Shown piece after piece: positions 15,185 to 53,036 of a stretch of 64,000 nucleotides of DNA. The stretch lies in assembly GCA_030431255.1 (NCBI GenBank), contig JAUIJL010000001.1:1054001-1118000 (forward strand). The letters run 5' to 3'. Position numbers and translations under genes: made by a program. A model generated the notes under the pieces. It saw nothing but the letters and a program-made list of their open reading frames with translations. It did not search any database and was not told the origin of the DNA. Source of the stretch: Thermoanaerobaculia bacterium. Lineage in GTDB: Bacteria; Acidobacteriota; Thermoanaerobaculia; Multivoradales; J023. Within the stretch, counting starts at the first letter, position 1, and each line of letters opens with the position of its first letter.

Positions 15185-15893
15185 GGGTGACGATATTAAG
15201 GGCATCTGGCATCGTTTCCAATCCGGATTGGACGTCACTGTAGCGGTGCGGGGTCATGCGCCGGAGAAGAGCTTGGGAGTCCGCGATGGATTCCTTCGCT
15301 ATTTGCACGACGTGCTGCAAGACGCGCCTCCGCTCACCGTGCGCATCCATCAAGTCGAAGGCAAGCCCGAGCTGCCGATGACCGATTCAGATTCCTTGAC
15401 GGCGGCGCGGGAGCTGGTCCGGCTCACGCGGCAGGAGCAACCCGAGACGTTTTTCGTGGTCGCCTGCGAGGAAGGGCTTTCCGAGGTCGTCGTCGAAGGT
15501 CCCTCAGCCGGCCGCACCTCGGCCGGCCGCACCTCAGCCGGCCGCACCTCAGCCGGCCGCACCTCAGCCGGCCGCACCTCAGCCGGCCGCACCGTTCGAC
15601 ACTTGGTCAAAAGCTGGGCCGTGGTCGACCTACAAACCGGCGGTCAACCCAGCGCTTATGAGCAGGCATGGGGTTGTAGCGGGGGCGTGCAGATCCCCGA
15701 CTCGGTGCTCGGCACGGTGAGCGATTCTCCCGTCGGATTCAGAACCGGGCCGTCGCCGGTCTTTCCCAGCACCCGCCGCGGACAAGGTTTGGTTCAGGCG
15801 ATCACCGGCAACCTGGAAAACCGACGGAGCACCACCGGCCAAGCCGTCTTCTACGCTCTATGTAGTCTCTTCTACGGACGTCTCTCCAGCTAG
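15183..15893 (+). CDS. hypothetical protein with a pentapeptide (SAGRT) tandem repeat
   Basis: A 236-residue protein starting at ATG 15183; no good ribosome-binding site is visible. I do not recognise the family. The N-terminal ~100 residues look globular (LDVTVAVRGHAPEKSLGVRD, FFVVACEEGLSEVVVEG). Then a run of six SAGRT units (residues ~108-137) encoded by perfect or near-perfect 15-bp repeats interrupts the sequence, and a second globular part continues (VRHLVKSWAVVDLQTGG ... VFYALCSLFYGRL). The even codon usage on both sides and lack of stops argue for a real gene rather than a shadow. It is divergent from the RNA methyltransferase gene and upstream of metK. Confidence 0.55.
   Translation: MGDDIKGIWHRFQSGLDVTVAVRGHAPEKSLGVRDGFLRYLHDVLQDAPPLTVRIHQVEGKPELPMTDSDSLTAARELVRLTRQEQPETFFVVACEEGLSEVVVEGPSAGRTSAGRTSAGRTSAGRTSAGRTSAGRTVRHLVKSWAVVDLQTGGQPSAYEQAWGCSGGVQIPDSVLGTVSDSPVGFRTGPSPVFPSTRRGQGLVQAITGNLENRRSTTGQAVFYALCSLFYGRLSS
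15504..15593 (+). repeat. 15-bp tandem repeat, six copies, inside a coding region
   Basis: Six consecutive units of TCAGCCGGCCGCACC; only the second differs (TCGGCCGGCCGCACC). The length is a multiple of three, so copy-number change would keep the frame and alter a run of SAGRT pentapeptides. Confidence 0.95.
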
Positions 15894-20313: not shown

Positions 20314-21219
20314 TTAAAGCGATGGCTCAACATTTGTCCGAAGATCTTCAAGAATTCCTTCTAAAGTATTGATGAGCTCATCTTTAGAAACCGAGCTTTG
20401 TCGAAATTTCAACGACAAGCTATAGCTCTTATCCTCGGGCCGGAAGTTGAAGACAAACGGACGCCTCCTCGGCGCACCAGACTTCGTCTTGTCGGTGCGA
20501 GTTTGGCGCCGGAGATCATCTCTGCTCAGACCGTGACGACTCACCTGTTCGAGCAGCCGGATCATTTCCTCCTCGGTCTCTGCTTTCAAGATCTCGAGCA
20601 GGATCGACTTCGTGCTGATACCCAGGGCTTGAGCCGTCTCACGAACCCGAATCGGGATTGCGAGAAGAGCCAAGCTTTCGGTGACCACCGTCCGTGATTT
20701 CCCCACCGCCTTGGAGATGTTCTCGTGGGTGTAATCGAAACGGTCGGAGAGAGCCTTATAACCTTCAGCCTCTTCAAAGGGTGTCAGATCTTTCCGCTGC
20801 AGATTCTCGATCAGGGCAATCTCGAGGGCTTCCTCCTCGGAGATGTCCATTTCGATGACTGGAATTTCCGACAGACCAGCCTGCATCGAAGCACGATAGC
20901 GGCGCTCACCGCTGATGATCATCAATGGCGCGGTCGCTTCTGAGCCTCTGTCGCCGGTGTTGGAGCCGTCCTGGAGGTTGGGGTTCGGGCGAACGAGGAT
21001 CGGCTCAAGAACACCTTTGTCTTGAATTGAGGCTGCGAGCTCCCCGAGGTCACCCATGGTGGTTCGGGGTTGCTTGGGATCGGGCACCACCGATGAAAGC
21101 GGAACCATCTTCCCCACCGGGGTCTCACTCCGACCAGCCAGCTCTTCCACAAAATGGCTGGTGTGCCTCATCCGAACCTTCTTTGGTAAGCCCCTCTTTT
21201 TTGCTGCAGAGCTAGACAC
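20314..21219 (-). CDS. parB: ParB-family chromosome/plasmid partition protein
   Basis: A 301-residue protein. GTG 21219 is chosen: it overlaps the parA stop by 8 bases, and a longer frame upstream adds nothing recognisable. The N-terminal CTPase domain has QPRTTMGDLGELAASI, GERRYRASMQAGLSEIPVIE (the arginine-rich box for CTP) and ENLQRKDLTPFEEAEGYKAL. The helix-turn-helix reads ISKAVGKSRTVVTESLALLA, diverged from the usual GKSRxxVxNxLRLL recognition helix, so it may bind a site other than the canonical TGTTTCACGTGAAACA parS. The C-terminal part is shorter and less conserved. ParB loads at parS as a clamp and with ParA segregates DNA. Paired with the palindromes at 22.1-22.6 kb. Confidence 0.9.
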   Translation of the reverse strand: MSSSAAKKRGLPKKVRMRHTSHFVEELAGRSETPVGKMVPLSSVVPDPKQPRTTMGDLGELAASIQDKGVLEPILVRPNPNLQDGSNTGDRGSEATAPLMIISGERRYRASMQAGLSEIPVIEMDISEEEALEIALIENLQRKDLTPFEEAEGYKALSDRFDYTHENISKAVGKSRTVVTESLALLAIPIRVRETAQALGISTKSILLEILKAETEEEMIRLLEQVSRHGLSRDDLRRQTRTDKTKSGAPRRRPFVFNFRPEDKSYSLSLKFRQSSVSKDELINTLEGILEDLRTNVEPSL

Positions 21220-21970
21220 GTCCCAAAATCTCTTCCGACAATTTGTAGTACTCGTAGGCGCCACTCGATTGAGGGGCGAAGCTAAAGATGGCTTCTTTGT
21301 AGGCGGGGCTCTCTTCGAGTCTTACGCTCTTAGAGATGGTGGTTTCGAAGAGTCGATCGCCAAAGACGTCGGCAATCTGGTCTCTAATATCGCGTGCTAG
21401 AACCGTCCGTTTATCGTACAAAGTGATCACCGCGCCCAGGATCTGAAGATCCGGGTTAGCCCGCACTTTGATCTTGTCCACCGTCTCCAAGAGATCATCC
21501 GTACCCTCAAGGGCGAAGTAGCTGGATTGAATCGGAATCAACACGTGACTGGCAGCCACCAGTGCGTTGACCGTGATGATTCCAAGGGTCGGCGGAGTGT
21601 CGATCACCATGTAGTCGAATTGTTCTCGAATAAGATCGATCTCATCTTTGAGGCGAAAATGACTGTCGAGCTCCCCAAGGAGCTTCGCTTCGATCTTCGC
21701 CAAGGCAATCGTAGAAGGAGCGACGAATAGGTTTGGGGTATTCGACGACTCGTGCATGATGTCTGCGATGTGGATATCCGGCTCAGTAAGAGCCTCGTAC
21801 ATCGCGGCTTCGAGCTCGTGAACCTCCATGAAAGACATCGAGCTGTTGGCTTGGGGGTCCAAGTCAATCAGCAGCGTCTTGAAACCTTTGGAGGCTAAGG
21901 CGGCTGAGAGATTGATGGCGGTTGTGGTTTTTCCCACTCCACCCTTCTGATTGGTGATGGCAATAATCAT
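21212..21970 (-). CDS. parA: ParA-family partition ATPase
   Basis: A 252-residue Walker-type ATPase, ATG 21970. The deviant Walker A box KGGVGKTTTAINLSAALA includes the signature Lys; LLIDLDPQANSS is switch I/Walker A', and YMVIDTPPTLGIITVNAL is Walker B. Length and lack of an N-terminal DNA-binding extension fit chromosomal Soj/ParA type Ia-short or type Ib proteins. It overlaps parB by 8 bases, so translation is probably coupled. A ~200-base leader separates its start from the palindrome array, which may act both as partition site and as operator. Confidence 0.93.
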   Translation of the reverse strand: MIIAITNQKGGVGKTTTAINLSAALASKGFKTLLIDLDPQANSSMSFMEVHELEAAMYEALTEPDIHIADIMHESSNTPNLFVAPSTIALAKIEAKLLGELDSHFRLKDEIDLIREQFDYMVIDTPPTLGIITVNALVAASHVLIPIQSSYFALEGTDDLLETVDKIKVRANPDLQILGAVITLYDKRTVLARDIRDQIADVFGDRLFETTISKSVRLEESPAYKEAIFSFAPQSSGAYEYYKLSEEILGRV

Positions 21971-22166: not shown

Positions 22167-22392
22167 TGTCGGCGCGCCGACAATGAGTATGGTGTCTTTC
22201 GAGTCGTGTGTCGACACGTCGACCACTCCATCAACTAGTTTTCGATTGGATGTCGGCACGCCGACAATTGAAGAGATCGCTGTTAGACAATGTCGGCACG
22301 CCGACAATCGAGCAAAAAGCTTCCTGCAAGCCGATGTCGGCGCGCCGACAATTCTGGGAACAGAACGAGCATAGGATGTCGGCACGCCGACA
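22167..22392. repeat. phased array of six 16-bp palindromes, candidate parS centromere
   Basis: Copies of TGTCGGCRCGCCGACA start at 22167, 22251, 22291, 22335 and 22377. A degenerate copy at 22209 (TGTCGACACGTCGACC) carries paired substitutions G to A and C to T that keep the dyad. Start-to-start distances are 42, 42, 40, 44 and 42 bases, about four helical turns, so all dyads lie on roughly one face of the DNA. Canonical parS is also a 16-bp palindrome beginning TGT and ending ACA. The array lies upstream of parA-parB whose ParB has an unusual recognition helix. Further single copies occur at 22517, 23795 (same site, opposite orientation of the central base), 14290 (first base changed) and 34209 (inside rpoN). 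Repetition and spacing are directly seen; the centromere role is inferred. Confidence 0.7.
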
Positions 22393-22516
22393 TCCAAGAG
22401 TCATTGACTGCAGGTAACGGCGATGGCCTACTGCCTGCCGGCATGACCCCAAGAGCTTGGGTACGCTCAACGCTGCAAAAGCGAGATGGACCCGTAAAGT
22501 CTCAGACCGCGCCTAA

Positions 22517-22532
22517 TGTCGGCGCGCCGACA
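22517..22532. repeat. isolated copy of the 16-bp palindrome
   Basis: A perfect TGTCGGCGCGCCGACA, 140 bases from the last array member and therefore outside the 42-base phasing. Confidence 0.8.
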
Positions 22533-22590: not shown

Positions 22591-22684
22591 GTTGAACCCC
22601 TCAGGGTTCGGAATGACGATGCTTGTAAACCCAGGGTGGCGCGTCGCTTACCCTGGGATGTTGGATGTAACCCCTTTGTGGTTG
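22591..22684 (+). repeat. hairpin-rich intergenic repeat-like element
   Basis: Three consecutive stem-loops: AACCC..GGGTT near 22593-22606, CCCAGGGT (22630-22637) with ACCCTGGG (22650-22657), and AACC..GGTT near 22669-22683. Similar fragments (ACCCTGAGCTGTCGGGTTACC near 24748; ACCCC/GGGGT near 23366-23383) occur elsewhere nearby, suggesting a decayed interspersed repeat family. Assignment to a named family is not possible here. Confidence 0.4.
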
Positions 22685-22919
22685 CAAGGCATCTTTGTTG
22701 GATTTCCAAAACCTCGTAGAGCACTGGTCGGATGGGCGTTGGGCGCAGGTTGGGCGAGTTCCCCCGTTAAAGCACGAAGATACCCCCCCCTTATCGGGCT
22801 CCTCCCTGCATCGCTCGATGGGTTATGAGTCGAACGGCGTAGACCAAGGCGCATGGGCCGAGCGGCACGCAGGGAGATGGGGTTGGGTGATAGAAGTTGA
22901 ATTCTGAAGATTGGACGCC

Positions 22920-22963
22920 CAGTAGGCTTAGCAACAGAGGCCAGTAGGCTTAGCAACAGAGGA
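22920..22963 (+). repeat. 22-bp direct repeat, two copies
   Basis: Two adjacent copies sharing CAGTAGGCTTAGCAACAGAG (starts 22920 and 22942), followed by GC and GA. Non-coding context. Confidence 0.85.
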
Positions 22964-23794
22964 CGGAGACATGGAGATGGGTCGTGAGAATTGGACTGCG
23001 AAGGTTGGGCCGCGGATGCCGAGCTGTGGGGAGAGGCCAGGCTGTTGGGGTTGGGTCGTGGAGGCCGGGACCGCGGGGACCATTGAACCACAGGGACACA
23101 TAGGTGGGCTCGAGAGCCCTTACTCTGGCCTGGGCTTGGCCGGCCACCAGCCGAAGCCAACCAAGCAAAGCCGCATATTTGCAAGCCGTCAGTAGGGACT
23201 CGTTTCCCATTCTTCGGATCGGGGACTCTCTCTGCGGAGGCTTCGTTAGCGAGCTGAGTAGTCAGAATCAGGTGGGGACGTCCTGCTAAGGACTCAGAGG
23301 CACAGCTAGGAGACAGAGGTGATTTTCCGCTTCCAGATTGTAAGCTTCATGAGCGAGCTTCCTCTGGGGTATTCCTGAACCCCGGAGTTTAGAATCCCCT
23401 TCGGGCTGGTGTGAGAGACTCTTCCAATGAGTCTCTCCGTACCCCCAAAGGGGCATTACCCGGAATCCCAAGGATTAGAGACCAGATTGCAAGCGAAGCG
23501 CCACCTTGGGATTGTAGATACGCAAAGCCCGAACCCTGAAGAGGTTCTACAAATACATGCTGCGGCCGATGCAGATGCACGGGGGCTGCCCGTCAGGGAC
23601 AAAGCAATCGCTAGCTGCGGAGCTCATCCTTGGCTGGGCACCACGGCAGGCTGCCGCCATGGTGCTACCGGCATCGACAGGGAACGATGCGCCGAACGTC
23701 GACGATTTCGGTAGGAGCCCAGTTGTCAGCCTGGAATGCTCGCCGAGAGCTCCGGCTCCCACCTTGGTTTCCGACAGGCTTTCAATGAATCAAA

Positions 23795-23810
23795 TGTCGG
23801 CGTGCCGACA
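23795..23810. repeat. isolated copy of the 16-bp palindrome
   Basis: TGTCGGCGTGCCGACA, the reverse-complement form of the A-type array members, 1.4 kb from the array and upstream of the DUF151 gene. Confidence 0.75.
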
Positions 23811-23953
23811 TCTGCAAGACCTCCAGGCCGAGAACTGAGTCCAGAGCTCTTCGGCAAGGAAGCTCGAAGCGGGTGGACCCCTAGAGGTCACCTGATTCGT
23901 TCCGATCAAGGTTGCCCTTGACCTGCCCTACCCCACCACCTCAGAATGGATTC

Positions 23954-24460
23954 ATGAGCGATTCCGACCAAGACGAATTCATCCAGATGGAAGTCAAGGG
24001 CCTCATGTTGGACCCGATTTCCGACGCCCCTATTGTGGTTCTGAGGGATGTCAACGGATCTCGTTTTCTGCCCATCTGGATCGGGGTGCCAGAGGCCAAC
24101 GCCATTGCGCTCGTCTTGGAGGACGTCACGGTTCCTAGACCAATGACCCACGACCTTTTCGTGACGACTCTACATGGTCTGGGTGCCTCTGTGGTTCAGA
24201 TCGAGGTGCACAACTTGATCAAGAACACCTTTTACGCCAGGCTCCATATCGAGGTGGACGGCGCCCCCAAGTTGGTGGACGCGCGCCCGAGTGATGCCAT
24301 CGCCATCGCGCTCCGAGCAGGTGCTCCTATCTTGGTGAGCGAAAGCGTTCTCAAGAACGCCCGCGCGAATCCTTTGCTCGACAATTTGAGCGAGGATGAG
24401 AAGATCAAAGAGATCTTGAAGAACCTCGACGAGGAAGATCTCGGTGACTACACGATGTAG
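23954..24460 (+). CDS. bifunctional nuclease family protein (DUF151)
   Basis: A 168-residue protein; ATG 23954 gives an N-terminus (MSDSDQDEFIQMEVKGLMLD) that fits the family. The conserved DUF151 core is clear: PIVVLRDVNGSRFLPIWIG, the EANAIALVLEDVTVPRPMTHDLF segment and RPSDAIAIALRAGAPILVSE. Homologues include plant bifunctional nucleases with RNase and DNase activity; in bacteria the role is poorly known. The acidic C-terminal tail (EDEKIKEILKNLDEEDLGDY) is common. It reads toward miaB, which is convergent; the two genes are separated by about 730 bases of non-coding DNA. Confidence 0.9.
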   Translation: MSDSDQDEFIQMEVKGLMLDPISDAPIVVLRDVNGSRFLPIWIGVPEANAIALVLEDVTVPRPMTHDLFVTTLHGLGASVVQIEVHNLIKNTFYARLHIEVDGAPKLVDARPSDAIAIALRAGAPILVSESVLKNARANPLLDNLSEDEKIKEILKNLDEEDLGDYTM

Positions 24461-24765
24461 CTCGCTTCTCCTGTGCTACGTTCTTCCAAGGGGATAACGC
24501 CCCCAATCGTCTGCGGCTCCATGACGTCTTCGACGTCCGGCTGATAGAAGTCGTCGCCTACTCTCCCCTCAGCTCTCCGCTCAGCCCTCTCGGTCCTTTG
24601 TCCTCTTCCGAATTGGGAGCAATGTAGCTCAGCTCCTGCTCGAGTTTCTTAGATACGTCGGAAGTCATCACGTGTGTGCTGAACTTTTGGAGCCTTCAAA
24701 GAGCTCTCCGATTCGAATGCCGCACACCCAAGGTGGTGCTTGGCTAACCCTGAGCTGTCGGGTTA

Positions 24766-24845
24766 CCGCCCCTTGGGTGTTCAACCCGGTGGTCCAGCGC
24801 TTCGGCCTGGTCTATGACATCACCGAATTCTCGGCCACCATCTCC
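24766..24845 (+). pseudogene. 80-bp fragment duplicated from the cyclase-like gene at 51-53 kb
   Basis: Bases 24766-24845 match 52117-52196 with one mismatch (T for G early in the block). The source encodes residues SAPWVVNPVVQRFGLVYDIT and onward of the cyclase-like protein. Nine bases just upstream (GAGCTGTCG at 24752) also match the source at 52083, separated by 5 bases here and 25 in the gene, so the copy may have begun further upstream and lost about 20 bases. It has no start or domain context and cannot encode a useful product. Confidence 0.85.
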
Positions 24846-25091
24846 CTAGTTTGATTTGAGACCAGGGCCACAGCGTGGCTAACCCGTCCCAAGAATTCAC
24901 TTTAGAGAATTAGCTTGAAGTTCGAGTGGCGACGGGAAATCTAGAGAAGATCCTTGGCCCGATGTGGAATGCTGCATGGCAGCACATGGTGCGGTGATCC
25001 TGCGGGTAGCTCACCCACCCACTCGCAGGTAGAAGGTGAGCCCCTCAGCTCGGGGTAGCACGCCTTCAGGTAGCCAGAAGTTTGCCGCTAT

Positions 25092-25123
25092 AAAAAAGGC
25101 CCCTCTCATCGGAGAGGGGCCTT
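25092..25123 (-). terminator. rho-independent terminator of miaB
   Basis: Perfect 12-bp stem AAGGCCCCTCTC with its complement (25112-25123 and 25096-25107), loop of four, followed on the minus strand by a T run (A run 25092-25097). It lies about 70 bases past the miaB stop and would end the long minus-strand gene cluster. Confidence 0.9.
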
Positions 25124-25194
25124 GGGTAGATGGGGCTGCGGATCCTAGATGGCGGTGACAGGGGCAGCTGGGGAGACTGAGCCTGCCCAGCTGG

Positions 25195-26538
25195 TCAAGC
25201 TACTCGACGACCGATCAGGGAATGGGGCAGCCCCTTCTCCACCTCGAGCTGAATGAGGCTACCCAGCTCGACCGCCGCGTCGCCGTACTCGAAGTGGATC
25301 AGGCGGTGGCAGGGGGTGCGGCCAGTTTGGGTGCCGGCCCGTTTACCCCATTGGGTGACCAGGACCTCGAAGGTCTCCCCCACGAGGTCTTGGTTCAGCT
25401 CCTGCTGAATTTGACCCTGGAGCGCGAAGAGGTCCTGCAGTCTTCGGTCGGCCGCCTTGGGCTCTACCTCGTCGAGCTTGAGTCTTGGGGCGGCGGTCCC
25501 GGGGCGGGGCGAGTATTTGAAGGCAAAGATCTGGGCGAACCTCAGCTCCTTGACCAGATCGTAGGTCGCCTGGAAGTCCTCTTCGGTCTCGCCTGGAAAG
25601 CCGACGATCAGGTCGGTGGATAGGGCGATCCCAGGCCGGGCCTGCCGGATGCGACGGATCAGGTCTCGATAGGGCTCAATCTCGTAGCCTCGACCCATGA
25701 GCTTGAGGATTCGGTTGGAACCCGACTGCACCGGTAGGTGCAAATAGGGCGAGATGTTTTCGTGGCGGGCGAATTGGTCCACCATGGCCTGGGAAAAATC
25801 TCGGGGATAGGAGGTGACGAAGCGGAGACGCCGCATTCCCATTCGGGCTACCTTATCCAGGAGCACTGCGAAGTCGGCCCCGGTCTCGGGATCTTGCCAG
25901 TGGTTGACGGTCTGCCCCAGCAGCTCGATCTCCACGAAGCCGTAGTCGAGAAGGTGCTGGACCTCGCTGAGGATGTCGCCCAGGGGTCGGCTCTGCTCGG
26001 GGCCTCGGGTGGACGGCACGATGCAGAAGGTGCACTTCTTGTTGCACCCCTCGATGATCGTGACCATGCCCTTGAAGGTTCCCTCGCGGGATAGCGTGTC
26101 GAGCTCGTAGTTGCGTGTGGTGGCGTCGGGGAATCCGGTGGCGACGATCGGCTTTCCCGAAACGCGACGCCTCTGAACGATCTCTGCCAGCTCCCCAACC
26201 CTGCCCGGTCCGACCACGAAGTCCAAGTCGTCGACCCGGCGGATCGCCTTCTCGCCTTCCTGTTGGGCCACGCATCCGCAGAAACCGATCATTAGGTGGG
26301 GGCGATCACGCTTCAGCAGGCGGTATTCGCCCAGCCTGGAATAAGCCTTTTGCGCCGCCTTCTCCCGCACACTGCACGAGTTCAGCAGGATGATGTCCGC
26401 TTCCTTCGGCTCACGGGTCGGCAGGATTCCTTGTTGCATGAGCTGCCCTGTCATGCGCTGGGAGTCCAGCTCATTCATTTGGCAGCCCCAAGTCTCGACG
26501 TAGAAACGCCGCGGAGAGGGGATCGATGTGGCAATCAT
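25195..26538 (-). CDS. miaB: tRNA-2-methylthio-N6-isopentenyladenosine methylthiotransferase
   Basis: A 447-residue protein from ATG 26538 (MIATSIPSPRRFYVETWGCQ); frame extends upstream but into the preceding gene. The UPF0004 domain supplies three Cys for the auxiliary 4Fe-4S cluster (WGCQMN, NSCSVREKA, GFCGCVAQQ). The radical SAM domain has CNKKCTFC with VPSTRGPEQSRP, and the C-terminal TRAM domain follows (LVGETFEVLVTQWGKR ... LIQLEVEKG). MiaB adds a methylthio group to i6A37 of tRNAs reading UNN codons, in the cytoplasm. It is the last gene of the minus-strand cluster, 5 bases after the lipoprotein gene, with a strong terminator beyond it. MiaA is not in the window. Confidence 0.95.
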   Translation of the reverse strand: MIATSIPSPRRFYVETWGCQMNELDSQRMTGQLMQQGILPTREPKEADIILLNSCSVREKAAQKAYSRLGEYRLLKRDRPHLMIGFCGCVAQQEGEKAIRRVDDLDFVVGPGRVGELAEIVQRRRVSGKPIVATGFPDATTRNYELDTLSREGTFKGMVTIIEGCNKKCTFCIVPSTRGPEQSRPLGDILSEVQHLLDYGFVEIELLGQTVNHWQDPETGADFAVLLDKVARMGMRRLRFVTSYPRDFSQAMVDQFARHENISPYLHLPVQSGSNRILKLMGRGYEIEPYRDLIRRIRQARPGIALSTDLIVGFPGETEEDFQATYDLVKELRFAQIFAFKYSPRPGTAAPRLKLDEVEPKAADRRLQDLFALQGQIQQELNQDLVGETFEVLVTQWGKRAGTQTGRTPCHRLIHFEYGDAAVELGSLIQLEVEKGLPHSLIGRRVA

Positions 26539-26543
26539 GGTTC

Positions 26544-27410
26544 TCAGTTGTCGTTCGGTTCCCGGGTCACGGGCTCGCCCGGCTCGACCGTGTCGATGTC
26601 GGAGGCGAGGGTCCGTTCCTCGGTGGTGGGCTCGAGCTCCCACCCCTGGTTGAGCCAACCCTGAAGGGCGCCCGCTTGCCGACCGTCGTCGAGGAAGTCG
26701 TCGAGCTCGGTTTCATAGCGGGAAGCTTGCTGGCGTAGGGCATCCATACGATCCAGGACGCGATCCCATGCGGGTTTGATTTGGCTGTCCCGGATGTACG
26801 GATCCTCTTCGGCATAGAATTGTTGCCGAAGGGCCGCTGATTCTAATTCGAGACGGCTCAAGTCGTCGATAGCCCGACGCCATCCCATCCGCAGCTCAAG
26901 GGCGCGATTGCGCCAATACTCTTCGTCTCGGATGTCACCATCGTCGTCGTCATCGTCTTCGGCGAAGGCTTCCGCGTAGTCCTCGGCGGTGGGCTCCGGC
27001 GCGGCCGGCTCCGATTCGAGCACGATTACCTCACCGCCCTCGGCGTATTCCGCGAGGTTCTCGTCGTTGATCTCAGCGATCGGCTTTTGCACCCCACGGG
27101 CTCGCTTCTGGGCCTTCGCGAGACGGGATGCCTCGATCAAGGTCTTGGGCTGCTCGGTGCCACCGGGATCGATGACCCGTACGGCGTTCTGCCCGCCCGT
27201 GGTCGGCTCGACTTGACGGATGGGCGGCGGCAACGGCGGAGCCGGTGGGGGCGGCTCCATTTGCGGCGTCACCTGGGTCGGGGCGGGAAAGGTTTCGGGG
27301 GATTTCTTATCTCCACAACCGATTGACGCCACGCAAAGCATACCGGTGAGCAGGACGAAGGGAGCACGATGCCGGAGCCGCGCGCGCTGTATCGAGTGAT
27401 GCCGAGTCAT
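26544..27410 (-). CDS. predicted lipoprotein of unknown function, charged
   Basis: A 288-residue protein. ATG 27410 is chosen because AGGAG precedes it at good spacing and it gives a signal peptide with lipobox (VLLTGMLCVASIGCGDKK). After a Pro-rich linker (PPPPAPPLPPPIRQ) the protein is acidic, with an Asp run (EDDDDDDGDIRDEEYW) and a C-terminal helical region with coiled-coil look (ALELRMGWRRAIDDLSRLEL ... RMDALRQQASRYETELDDFL). I do not recognise a family. It sits between ptsI and miaB with short gaps (13 and 5 bases) so is probably in the same transcript. The lipid anchor places it in an envelope membrane. Confidence 0.7.
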   Translation of the reverse strand: MTRHHSIQRARLRHRAPFVLLTGMLCVASIGCGDKKSPETFPAPTQVTPQMEPPPPAPPLPPPIRQVEPTTGGQNAVRVIDPGGTEQPKTLIEASRLAKAQKRARGVQKPIAEINDENLAEYAEGGEVIVLESEPAAPEPTAEDYAEAFAEDDDDDDGDIRDEEYWRNRALELRMGWRRAIDDLSRLELESAALRQQFYAEEDPYIRDSQIKPAWDRVLDRMDALRQQASRYETELDDFLDDGRQAGALQGWLNQGWELEPTTEERTLASDIDTVEPGEPVTREPNDN

Positions 27411-33092: not shown

Positions 33093-34829
33093 TTAGAAGA
33101 TCCGCTTCCGCTCTGTAGAAGAGGGAATTCCCAGCTCGTCACGGTATTTGGCGACCGTCCGCCGAGCGATCTGAATTCCCTCACGCTTCAAAATCCTCAT
33201 CAGCTCACTATCGGATAGGGGCTTCTTCGGTTCCTCATCCTGGATCATTTGCTTGATCTTGCGCTTGACCGTCAGGGAGGAAATGTCGCCACCATATTCT
33301 CGATCGATGCCGGAATGAAAAAAGAACTTCATCGGCAACAGGCCGCGGGGGGTGTGGATGTATTTATTGGACACTACCCGGCTGACCGTGGACTCGTGCA
33401 TTTCGATATCTTCTGCCACGTCTCGCAACACCATCGGTCGGAGATGGTCGACACCGTGATCCAAGAATCCGCGTTGCTGTTTGACGATCGACTCCGCGAC
33501 TTTGTAGATCGTTCTTTGCCGCTGGTCGAGGCTCTTGATCAACCAGAAGGCGGAGCGCATTTTTTCTTTGATGTACTGCTGGGCCTCTTCTTCACTGCCC
33601 TTCTGGCTCATGGCCCGGAGCATCTGACGATAGGCGCGGCTCACCCGAAGCCGAGGTAGCCCATTGTCGTTGAGCTGGATCACATATTCTTCGCCAACCT
33701 TGACCACGTGCACGTCGGGCTCCACATATTGGGTACGTTCCGTGGCGAACTCGCGACCCGGTCGAGTTTCGAGACTGCTGATCCGCTCGACCACGGGTTT
33801 CAGCTTGGCGAGGGGCAGGCCCAGCTCTTTGGCGATTTGCTCAAATTTACGACGGGTGAAGAGATCCCACTTCTCGGAGACCAGGATTCGGGTCAAGGAG
33901 TCCTCGGCCTCTCCCATGCGGTCCAGCTGGCAAAGCAGACTTTCACGGAGATCCGCACAGGCCACCCCGGGCGGCTCGAAGCTACGGACCAGCTCCAGCG
34001 CTTCGATCACGACCTCGCGAGGATAGGAGCCGGGAGGCAGCTCAATGGGCTCAGCTCCCAGTGCTTCCTCAGCGGTTTCGGATTCCGAAGCGGCTCCGGA
34101 ATCGACGGCGACTTGTGGCGTGGCTTCTTCGGCTGAAGAGTCCTGCTCGGAGCCGGCTGACGTGGTGGAGCCCAGTATCGCGTCGTCGGTCGCCGACGCC
34201 TCGGTTTCTGTCGGCCCGCCGACAATTTCCGTGAGATCAGGGTCTTCTTCGGTGGTCTCAGAGGGGGTTCGAGGAGAGCGGGTATCCCGGCCCGGCTCAC
34301 TGAATCCGTCAGCACCCATCCGCTGGATTTCTTCCACTGTGGCTTTGAGAAAGCCGTCTTCGTCGAGGTTACCGATGATCAGCTCGGCGATCTCTCGAAC
34401 CAGCGCCGGCACCTCGGTCATATGCAGCTGGAAAAGGAGATTGTCGTAGAGATCGTCTTCCTGACTGAGGGTGTTTTCGAGCGGTGGCCCTTCTCTCTCC
34501 TCGTAGATCGAGGCTGCGCCGGTACCTTCCCAGCTCTCGGCATAGTCACCGAAGAAGGCATCCAAGTCCACATCGTTAAGCGCCGCTTCCTCTAATTTGG
34601 CGTCGGCCGCATCCTTGGCCTCTTGGGCGGCTTCCTGAGCTTCCTGGGCTCGATCTTCCTCACTGCTGGGCTCCGCCTCTTCGAGCACCGGGTTTTCTAC
34701 GAGCTCTTGCGTCAAAACCCCTTCGAGCTCGAGACGCGTCATTTGCAGCAGCTTGATCGCCTGCTGCAAAGAGGGCGTCATGACTAGCTTCTGCGCCAGC
34801 TTGAGTGAAAGTTTCTGCTCTAGGGCCAT
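33093..34829 (-). CDS. rpoN: RNA polymerase sigma-54 factor
   Basis: A 578-residue protein, ATG 34829. Region I (LKLAQKLVMTPSLQQAIKLLQMTRLELEG) binds activator; then an acidic region II; core-binding and HTH domains follow, and the RpoN box ARRTVAKYRDELGIP near the C-terminus contacts the -24 element. It directs transcription from -24/-12 promoters with AAA+ activators. It is about 80-100 residues longer than usual: residues ~180-275 form a low-complexity Ser/Thr/Glu-rich insertion (SSAEEATPQVAVDSGAASES). The DNA for this insertion contains a copy of the 16-bp palindrome (34209-34224). None of the activators in this window has a visible sigma-54 AAA+ domain. Confidence 0.95.
   Translation of the reverse strand: MALEQKLSLKLAQKLVMTPSLQQAIKLLQMTRLELEGVLTQELVENPVLEEAEPSSEEDRAQEAQEAAQEAKDAADAKLEEAALNDVDLDAFFGDYAESWEGTGAASIYEEREGPPLENTLSQEDDLYDNLLFQLHMTEVPALVREIAELIIGNLDEDGFLKATVEEIQRMGADGFSEPGRDTRSPRTPSETTEEDPDLTEIVGGPTETEASATDDAILGSTTSAGSEQDSSAEEATPQVAVDSGAASESETAEEALGAEPIELPPGSYPREVVIEALELVRSFEPPGVACADLRESLLCQLDRMGEAEDSLTRILVSEKWDLFTRRKFEQIAKELGLPLAKLKPVVERISSLETRPGREFATERTQYVEPDVHVVKVGEEYVIQLNDNGLPRLRVSRAYRQMLRAMSQKGSEEEAQQYIKEKMRSAFWLIKSLDQRQRTIYKVAESIVKQQRGFLDHGVDHLRPMVLRDVAEDIEMHESTVSRVVSNKYIHTPRGLLPMKFFFHSGIDREYGGDISSLTVKRKIKQMIQDEEPKKPLSDSELMRILKREGIQIARRTVAKYRDELGIPSSTERKRIF
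34209..34224. repeat. copy of the 16-bp palindrome inside rpoN
   Basis: TGTCGGCCCGCCGACA lies in the segment coding the low-complexity insertion of sigma-54 (about residue 204). It is the same family as the array upstream of parA, with a variant central pair. Confidence 0.7.
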
Positions 34830-51023: not shown

Positions 51024-53036
51024 ATGTCCCATTCCACCGTCGACCTACTGAGTCGTGGAAATTTCATTTTCTTGCGGCCGGACGCGAGCGAGATCCGCAA
51101 AGCACTGCCCGGTGCCGACGATCTGCTGCCGGCTCCGCAGAAGATTTTTCTCGAAGACGAGTCGTCGCCGCCGCTGAACGGTTTCCCGATTCTGGTCACC
51201 AACGCTCTCAAGCGGCTCGATCAGCTGCTGATGGACTATTTGTCCGCCGAGGAAGAAAACCAAGTCGCCAACGCCGTGCGCGGCTCGTTCGATAGCCGAG
51301 CCTACGCTGCTCGCCTGCAGGCCTATCAAGCCGCCTTGCTGCCGATGCTCGAGAATGCGACGGTCGCCGGCCTGAGCTACGACTACAGCTCCGTGTTTTG
51401 GCTTCGGCACTCTTTGGCGGTCGCCCGTTACCTTCAAGGGGCTCCCAGGCGCATCCGACAAAACGATCCGTCCGTCGGGCGTGAGCACGGCGACATCATC
51501 AAGTACAAGATTTTGGCGCGATGGCTGGATCGCGTCACTACCCTGACCAACGATTTAGCCAAGCAGCTGGCGGCAGAGATGCACGAGGAAGAGGAGGCCC
51601 TTTTCCCGCCCGTTTTGGGTCTGATGCGCGACAATATTCTGGTGTTGTCGGAGGACTACATCAGCCCCGATCTCTCGGAGCTTTCCAGCTTCTTCCGCGG
51701 CTACCTGGACCAGGAATTCAAAGAATTTCGTCGCCGATTGACCGCTCTCGAGCAATGGCATGCCTCCACGATCGGTCGAGACCCGGTGCTGCGGGCAGCC
51801 GCCACCGAGCTGCTCGGTAGCGATCCGGACAGCGAGGAGCCCAATCGCGTCCTCTTCCGTCCGAATTACGTGGCATTTTTGAGCCGCCATCCCGGATATC
51901 GGAGCGACTTCCTCACCACTGAGCAGATCGAGCAGCTGAACGCTCTTTTGGGCCGTTTGCGCCGGTTCGAAATTCTGCACGCCCTGAGAAAGCTGCTGGT
52001 GCCTTTGACCGAGGAGGATTCGAAGCTGGTGTGTCGGGACCGCAGCTTCAACAGCACGTGGGTGGGTGGGCCGCCGGTCCTCGAGCTGTCGAAAGGCACC
52101 CGGCCGATCGACTTCTCCGCCCCTTGGGTGGTCAACCCGGTGGTCCAGCGCTTCGGCCTGGTCTATGACATCACCGAATTCTCGGCCACCATCTCCATGC
52201 TCGGACGGGTTGAGAAAACGGCGATCGAAACCGCGTTCCGGATGACGGCCCAATTCCAGCGAAAAATCGACAAGCTGGCGGCCGACCTCGGCCTGAGATT
52301 GGAGAAATACCTCGGCGACGGTGCCTTCTACTCCGGCCGGAGGTCCCTGCGAATTTTGGCGATGGCCATTCTGATGCAGAGAATCTACCCGGATTTCGTC
52401 TCCCGTGGTTTCCCCTTCGACAAGGGGATGAGGCTGGCGCTGAATTTCGGCGAATACCGCCTCCTACCTCTCGACTCCGAAGAGTGGTCGAAAGCTCCTC
52501 GATACGAGTACTTCGGGCACGGCTTGGTGGAGCTGTCGAGGCTCTCCACCGGCAAGAAGACCCAAGAGCTCGACACCTTCCGAACCTATTTGGTGTCCAG
52601 GGGTTACCCCGAGTCGGCCGTCAACAAATTCTTCGCACCGATGATGCGCAAGGACGCGGAGCTGGTTTCTCGAATCGATGAGTCGAGACCGTTCTACGCC
52701 TACATCAATCAAAACGACACCCTGATCAATGAGGGCATCGTCGCCACTGAGCCTTTCATCCAGCACCTGGGCAGCTTCGACAGCCTGAGGTACACCCGAG
52801 AGCACGGCAGGGGTTTCATCGTGATCCCGATCGAGAGCCATCTGGGTGAGCTGACGGTGGGCATCAGGAAGTTGGGAAAGGCCCGCTTCAAGGGATTGGA
52901 GCCGATGCCCGTATATGAGGTGGTAGACGGTCGAGATTGGGATCCCGCTGCCATGAAGGTCGTGCCTCCCCAACCTCTGACTCAGGCCTTAGAACGGCTC
53001 TTCACCCAGACCATGGCGGCGTCCCAGGCCCGCTGA
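51024..53036 (+). CDS. divergent class III nucleotidyl-cyclase-like protein, family unknown
   Basis: A 670-residue protein, ATG 51024. Residues 1-~370 are mostly helical and unassigned. Residues ~380-500 resemble a class III adenylate/guanylate cyclase: VYDITEFSATISMLG mirrors DITGFT with the first metal Asp, EKYLGDGAFYSGR mirrors KxxGDxxxA with the second Asp and preceding Lys, then MRLALNFGEYRL and YEYFGHGLVELSRLST mirror the RIGLNTGE and GDxVNLAxRL segments. Several consensus residues are changed (the Asn/Arg catalytic pair is not obvious), so it may be inactive or a sensor. No transmembrane segment is evident. An 80-bp piece of this gene (52117-52196) has a near-identical copy at 24766-24845. 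The next gene is purC, 109 bases on. Confidence 0.6.
   Translation: MSHSTVDLLSRGNFIFLRPDASEIRKALPGADDLLPAPQKIFLEDESSPPLNGFPILVTNALKRLDQLLMDYLSAEEENQVANAVRGSFDSRAYAARLQAYQAALLPMLENATVAGLSYDYSSVFWLRHSLAVARYLQGAPRRIRQNDPSVGREHGDIIKYKILARWLDRVTTLTNDLAKQLAAEMHEEEEALFPPVLGLMRDNILVLSEDYISPDLSELSSFFRGYLDQEFKEFRRRLTALEQWHASTIGRDPVLRAAATELLGSDPDSEEPNRVLFRPNYVAFLSRHPGYRSDFLTTEQIEQLNALLGRLRRFEILHALRKLLVPLTEEDSKLVCRDRSFNSTWVGGPPVLELSKGTRPIDFSAPWVVNPVVQRFGLVYDITEFSATISMLGRVEKTAIETAFRMTAQFQRKIDKLAADLGLRLEKYLGDGAFYSGRRSLRILAMAILMQRIYPDFVSRGFPFDKGMRLALNFGEYRLLPLDSEEWSKAPRYEYFGHGLVELSRLSTGKKTQELDTFRTYLVSRGYPESAVNKFFAPMMRKDAELVSRIDESRPFYAYINQNDTLINEGIVATEPFIQHLGSFDSLRYTREHGRGFIVIPIESHLGELTVGIRKLGKARFKGLEPMPVYEVVDGRDWDPAAMKVVPPQPLTQALERLFTQTMAASQAR

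Follow-up and report, generated by a model that had tools for sequence, protein, structure and literature searches.

Genes and features of the locus

The window, by which we mean the whole 64,000-nucleotide stretch of Thermoanaerobaculia bacterium DNA analysed here, carries an 80-bp partial copy of one of its own genes (Table 1). The copy sits in a 734-base interval between a gene with a bifunctional-nuclease domain and a radical-SAM gene, the latter of which we take to be MiaB-like. The stretch from the par genes to the MiaB-like gene contains three members of a family of REP-like hairpins, and one of them overlaps a 178-aa ORF (22648-23184) without a Pfam match. The order of these genes was compared with that in seven relatives, for which regions were fetched out of 18 relatives with a match. 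In all seven, the nuclease gene shares its strand with the MiaB-like, ParA and ParB genes, and in the window it alone is flipped. The flipped gene is bracketed by one minus-strand and one plus-strand REP-like copy, whose cores share 17 of 19 bases.

Table 1. Features of the locus and of the other short copies in the sampled genome. Positions are those of the window unless a contig is named.
Feature	Position	Strand	Remarks
Third REP-like element, same locus	22628..22684	+	Found by profile model and core pattern
Second REP-like element	23440..23511	-	Opposite orientation, far side of flipped gene; E 0.0063, two-copy model
Bifunctional-nuclease-domain gene (PF02577)	23912..24460	+	Inverted relative to 7/7 relatives examined
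Quasi-palindrome	24724..24780	+	10-bp perfect arms ACACCCAAGG (24724-24733) and CCTTGGGTGT (24771-24780)
REP-like hairpin element	24726..24781	+	Overlaps first 16 bases of the copy; nhmmer two-copy model
80-bp partial gene copy	24766..24845	+	79/80 against the 670-aa gene; intergenic
Unambiguous copied tract, 65 bp	24781..24845	+	Identical to the gene; beyond the REP-like hairpin save base 24781
12/13 direct repeat GCGTGGCTAACCC	24873..24885	+	Repeats 24738-24750, inside the REP-like element
Intrinsic-terminator-like hairpin	25096..25123	-	Follows the MiaB-like gene and separates it from the copy
Radical-SAM gene (UPF0004 + Radical_SAM)	25195..26658	-	Pfam; other neighbour of the copy
Source gene, 670 aa	51024..53036	+	In 17/19 relatives searched; no Pfam family
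Source segment inside the 670-aa gene	52117..52196	+	Self-match; conserved among orthologues
Two-copy pair	C27:189259		66 bp, 1.1 kb apart
Two-copy pair	C49:133579		64 bp, 2.8 kb apart, plus 41-bp piece
Two-copy pair	C35:333533		50 bp, 3' part of tRNA-Thr gene
Two gene-length duplications in sample			2353 and 1181 bp

The same region holds a 16-bp palindrome, TGTCGGC[AG][CT]GCCGACA, in seven copies (22167-22532 and 23795-23810) beside parA/parB (20314-21970, minus strand). The 10.19-Mb genome has no further sites beyond those seven, and a looser form of the pattern adds one at 34209. Of 19 loci examined from 18 relatives, 12 have the parS-like palindrome close to the nuclease gene, against 2 of 80 named loci, and in each of the seven relatives mapped it is flanked by parA and the nuclease gene. 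The canonical parS pattern had no match in a 2.34-Mb sample of the host genome. The cluster beside parAB looks like a putative lineage-specific, divergent centromere site, and this conserved cluster is of more interest than the 80-bp copy itself. The copy of the palindrome at 23795 lies on the 5' side of the nuclease gene, while in one relative (G012) the site is on the MiaB side, so that its position here would fit a flip of the nuclease gene.

The copy and its source gene

The copy and its source run in the same orientation (self-BLAST E 3e-34) and differ only in the T at 24780, which is G at 52131 in the gene. The near-identity that a first-pass annotation had reported was thereby confirmed. 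They form the only dispersed match within the window at E<1e-3, the other self-match being a tandem array at 15502-15593. The whole host genome (10,192,622 bases, 54 contigs, 98.8% complete) holds the sequence in these two places and in no third, the remaining flank matches having E values of 0.5 or worse. The copy lies within a 1.22-Mb contig with unique sequence on either side, and the source of the copied tract has been left intact, as in a templated insertion. A small ORF running across the copy, from an ATG at 24717 to a TGA at 24854, found no support.

The 670-aa protein belongs to a conserved family of this order that has no Pfam or PDB match. The window protein itself matched neither a Pfam family nor, at E<=1, a PDB chain, which leaves its earlier label of cyclase-like unconfirmed, and 16 of its orthologues gave only scattered single-member Pfam matches at E 0.08 or worse. 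Its DI.EF and KYLGDG motifs presumably resemble those of class III cyclases.

The orthologues give the direction of copying. We examined 21 orthologous loci, four of which were repeats of a gene, leaving 17 distinct genes. The position of the mismatch is G in 15 of them, A in two and T in none. T at 24780 is, judging from this comparison, the derived base, and the gene holds the ancestral state at that position. Since no T occurs in any of the 17, copying went from the gene into intergenic DNA. The source segment is conserved among orthologues rather than variable. Among the 29 relatives searched, a count that leaves out the host's own genome, 14 have a match to the copied segment, one each. 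Eleven of these matches lie inside the gene's own orthologue and the other three (G025, G028 and G029) fall outside the orthologue search. A second copy, which had been suggested as something to look for in other genomes, was therefore seen in none of the 29, with at most one match apiece.

A REP-like element at the left edge

Up to and including base 24781, the left flank of the copy belongs to a dispersed hairpin family with the consensus AACCCAGGGTGGCGCTTCGCTTACCCTGGGCTGTTGGATACAACCCCTTCGGGGTTAAG. Profile searches and self-comparison were run on the sample of 2,340,212 bases of the host genome. The iterated profile was circular for the element at 24726-24781, so the model was rebuilt from two copies on another contig (C27) alone. 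Run with nhmmer over the 2.34-Mb sample, this two-copy model recovers 24711-24778 at E 0.0022, the next unrelated match there having E 0.17; on 3.1 kb of local intergenic sequence it does so at E 2.9e-6. The sample holds six strong copies, three of them at this locus. A plain scan for the arms CCCAAGG/CCTTGGG gave three per strand against about three expected, so that the arms alone are not enriched and it is the profile model that defines the family. The core pattern at <=3 mismatches, which misses more degenerate copies, occurs at seven places genome-wide, and in this locus only in the copy at 22628. The counts in three genomes of the same family are 13, 15 and 7, and the pattern is absent from the other 26 of the 29 relatives. 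The regions fetched from seven relatives, together with the other fetched loci, gave one weak match to the element (E 0.16), and the right flank of the copy (24782-25194) contains none save one match of E above 3.

The elements resemble the REP and REPIN repeats described in PMC3116915 and PMC3733652 in being dispersed, repeated hairpins, which are present in three of 29 relatives as well. They differ from the repeats described there in their low copy number, in lacking a consistent GTAG/CGTC tag and in having no linked Y1 transposase that we could find. REP elements are reported at over 100 per genome (PMC2817692), against the seven places of the core at <=3 mismatches here. With regard to RAYT-type tags, GTAG occurs within 45 bases of an end in one of the six copies and its complement CTAC in one of six, and CGTC was found on the 5' side, the side examined, in none of the six.

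The assignment of the left flank to this family changes how two earlier observations are read. The flanks had been described as AACCC/GGGTT repeats, which they are not: on the left, these are the stems of the REP-like hairpin. The 9-bp match reported upstream, GAGCTGTCG, is present as described, but it lies inside the REP-like element, so that no origin in the gene has to be assumed for it. An initial copy extending as far as GAGCTGTCG, in which a hairpin template switch then replaced 25 bases by 5, was considered and dropped, the stretch aligning with the REP-like element.

Junctions and local repeats

The copied tract begins within the terminal stem of the REP-like element, and bases 24766-24780 also fit the end of that element. 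The left junction has up to 14 bp in common with the gene, of which 6-7 bp are backed by other REP-like copies; homology of that length to the source is reached by 5-19% of the gene's 45-mers. The runs that other REP-like copies have in common with the source (CCTTGGG, CCCCTT and CAACCC) are not all located in a single stem. At the right junction no donor homology was found, the longest run in common with the 60 bases downstream in the gene being 6 bp. An 18/18-bp match of the right flank at C27:327201-327218 (E 0.5), which might have pointed to a second donor, is likely due to chance.

The derived T at 24780 completes the right arm of a 10-bp inverted repeat and agrees with the REP-like consensus, so that here the mutation makes the inverted repeat more perfect. 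The fold of 24721-24784 is stable (z = -3.65 as DNA and -3.68 as RNA; 1 of 200 shuffles as good), while that of a longer stretch, 24715-24900, is unremarkable (z -1.97; 10 of 200 as good). Post hoc shuffles reached the inverted repeat in 5 of 2000 cases, its 9-bp version against the gene in 13 of 2000, the 10-bp exact run of the direct repeat in 8 of 2000 and the upstream 9-mer in 26 of 2000. The 12/13-bp direct repeat also bears on a mobile-element target-site duplication, a reading that is weakened by the location of one side of the repeat in the REP-like element.

No empty site was found in a sister strain within the named collection, which may omit near records, and the single same-genus genome is too diverged (nuclease protein identity 52%). 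The pre-insertion sequence and its junctions were therefore not seen directly.

Origin of the copy

Taken together, the copy is probably the scar of a fairly recent templated insertion, produced by template switching or illegitimate recombination and without function. Of the origins and fates proposed in the first-pass annotation, a recent event and simple debris are the two that are borne out, whereas nothing was found in favour of upkeep by gene conversion. Replication or break repair would have been under way at this palindrome-rich intergenic site when DNA synthesis switched for a short while to the gene, 27 kb off, as its template. Short homology likely primed the switch, with the REP-like stem (CCCCTT or CCTTGGG) pairing with the gene's CCGCCCCTTGGGTG; priming at this stem is no more than plausible. 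About 65-80 bases would then have been copied in the same orientation before synthesis returned. The mismatched T could stem from the hairpin's part of the junction, or it could have been made by self-correction of the quasi-palindrome.

This sequence of steps belongs to an event class that is already known, and the case is otherwise ordinary. The insertions ascribed to replication template switching or MMBIR (PMC2621351) share with it a short copied tract, a source that is kept, possible microhomology and complex local rearrangement; the present case differs in that one junction lacks detected homology and the empty site was not seen. In E. coli, template switching linked to palindromes is an established process (PMC7202029). 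The quasi-palindrome mutations described in that species (PMC7202029, PMC8794818) likewise involve an imperfect inverted repeat, the mismatch in our copy perfecting 10 bp, but in those accounts the switch takes place inside one hairpin, whereas in our case the main template lies at a distance of 27 kb. The small variable segments of intergenic DNA attributed to illegitimate recombination (PMC2884548) are short segments of a similar kind; in contrast to those described, the source of ours is identified in the same genome and strain-to-strain variation was not seen.

Capture at a break by end joining of a stray double- or single-stranded gene fragment, instead of template switching, is an unlikely origin. 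In its favour, the copy is bracketed by the 12/13-bp direct repeat, and homology to the gene at the right junction does not exceed 6 bp. However, no Ku match was found in the whole of this 98.8%-complete genome, which still leaves Ku-independent joining, and the left unit of the repeat lies inside the REP-like element, so that no target-site duplication is required.

The start of the copy at the end of a REP-like element, and the 11 matches to IS200-like Y1 transposases in the genome (10 over the cut-off), would suit movement of single-stranded DNA at the hairpin by a REP-associated Y1 transposase that carried the gene fragment along. This we regard as very doubtful, given that none of the four sampled Y1 matches (C43, C35, C27 and C15) lies within 5 kb of a strong REP-like copy, the other seven falling outside the sample, that no REP-like element is listed at the source gene and that the GTAG and CTAC tags are as scarce as noted above. 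A broader proposal, which we rate only slightly higher and still as quite improbable, is that in this lineage REP-like hairpins act as capture points for short scraps of chromosomal genes and for single-gene inversions, owing either to an IS200-like Y1 enzyme that nicks and transfers strands or to stalled forks, with scraps accumulating at the hairpin loci. With respect to the flipped neighbour, the REP-like copies around it have diverged and the insert has not; inversion and insertion therefore need not be one event.

Slighter still is the chance that the copy has a regulatory role towards its source, whether as antisense RNA, sponge or recombination donor, even with its near-identity to a conserved gene and the stable hairpin at its left edge. 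Neither strand of 24400-25250 has a sigma-70-type promoter-like site, a point that is weak since shuffles average 0.4, and read-through from the upstream nuclease gene would yield sense RNA. A terminator-like hairpin stands between the copy and the opposing gene. The earlier suggestion of a guide for antisense pairing thus gains no support from promoters, nor does that of a recombination donor, the gene segment being conserved, not variable, and a second copy having been seen in none of the 29 relatives. An assembly artefact is scarcely credible, for while short repeats can be misjoined, the copy has unique sequence on both sides and differs from its source by a base.

A diversity-generating retroelement or a retro-copied mRNA was also considered and rejected: the genome has no RVT_1 reverse-transcriptase match above the cut-off and a single one below it, and the only mismatch, G to T, is not adenine-specific.

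The copy offers a clean example of a coding scrap entering bacterial intergenic DNA at a hairpin repeat, beside a gene inversion and in a genome in which no Ku gene was found. It also counsels caution, in that a near-identical piece of a gene found in non-coding DNA is not necessarily a regulator.

Other short copies in the genome

Self-comparison of the 2,340,212-base sample gave 36 pairs of >=35 bp at >=92% identity lying more than 500 bases apart. The 17 that were looked at, the 80-bp pair included, comprise among others low-complexity repeats, coding-repeat or paralogous motifs and a tRNA-Thr piece, and one duplicate among them is presumably tuf-like. Two-copy pairs of >=50 bp at >=95% number six in the sample, one of which is the 80-bp copy. 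It is the longest two-copy match there bar two gene-length duplications, and such events are therefore rare here. Of three apparent partial copies of protein genes in the sample, it is both the most identical and the most distant from its source.

A second apparent partial copy, at C49:133579-133680, joins in order two pieces of an ORF about 2.8 kb away (136372-136435, 95%; 136502-136542, 100%) with an internal gap, and gene debris therefore occurs in the host genome. The 50-bp tRNA-Thr copy, an exact match to the 3' part of the gene (C35:333533-333582 and 384923-384972), lies 51 kb from it and is a probable attachment-site duplication around an integrated island. At C43:194778-195487 (L226:12778-13487), an IS200-like Y1 transposase is enclosed by an inverted repeat of roughly 55 bp (93%). 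A weak RVT_1-like stretch stands beside it (C43:194494-194664), and the 210-aa ORF over that stretch, whose frame was not matched to the RVT_1-like one, has no Pfam family. Finally, at least four places (C15:802907-803136 and 885231-885453; C27:334986-335214; C35:251663-251904) carry a dispersed repeat whose copies are 93-96% identical and reach about 230 bp; a 63-bp part of it also stands at C15:184847, and the repeat is possibly a miniature mobile element.
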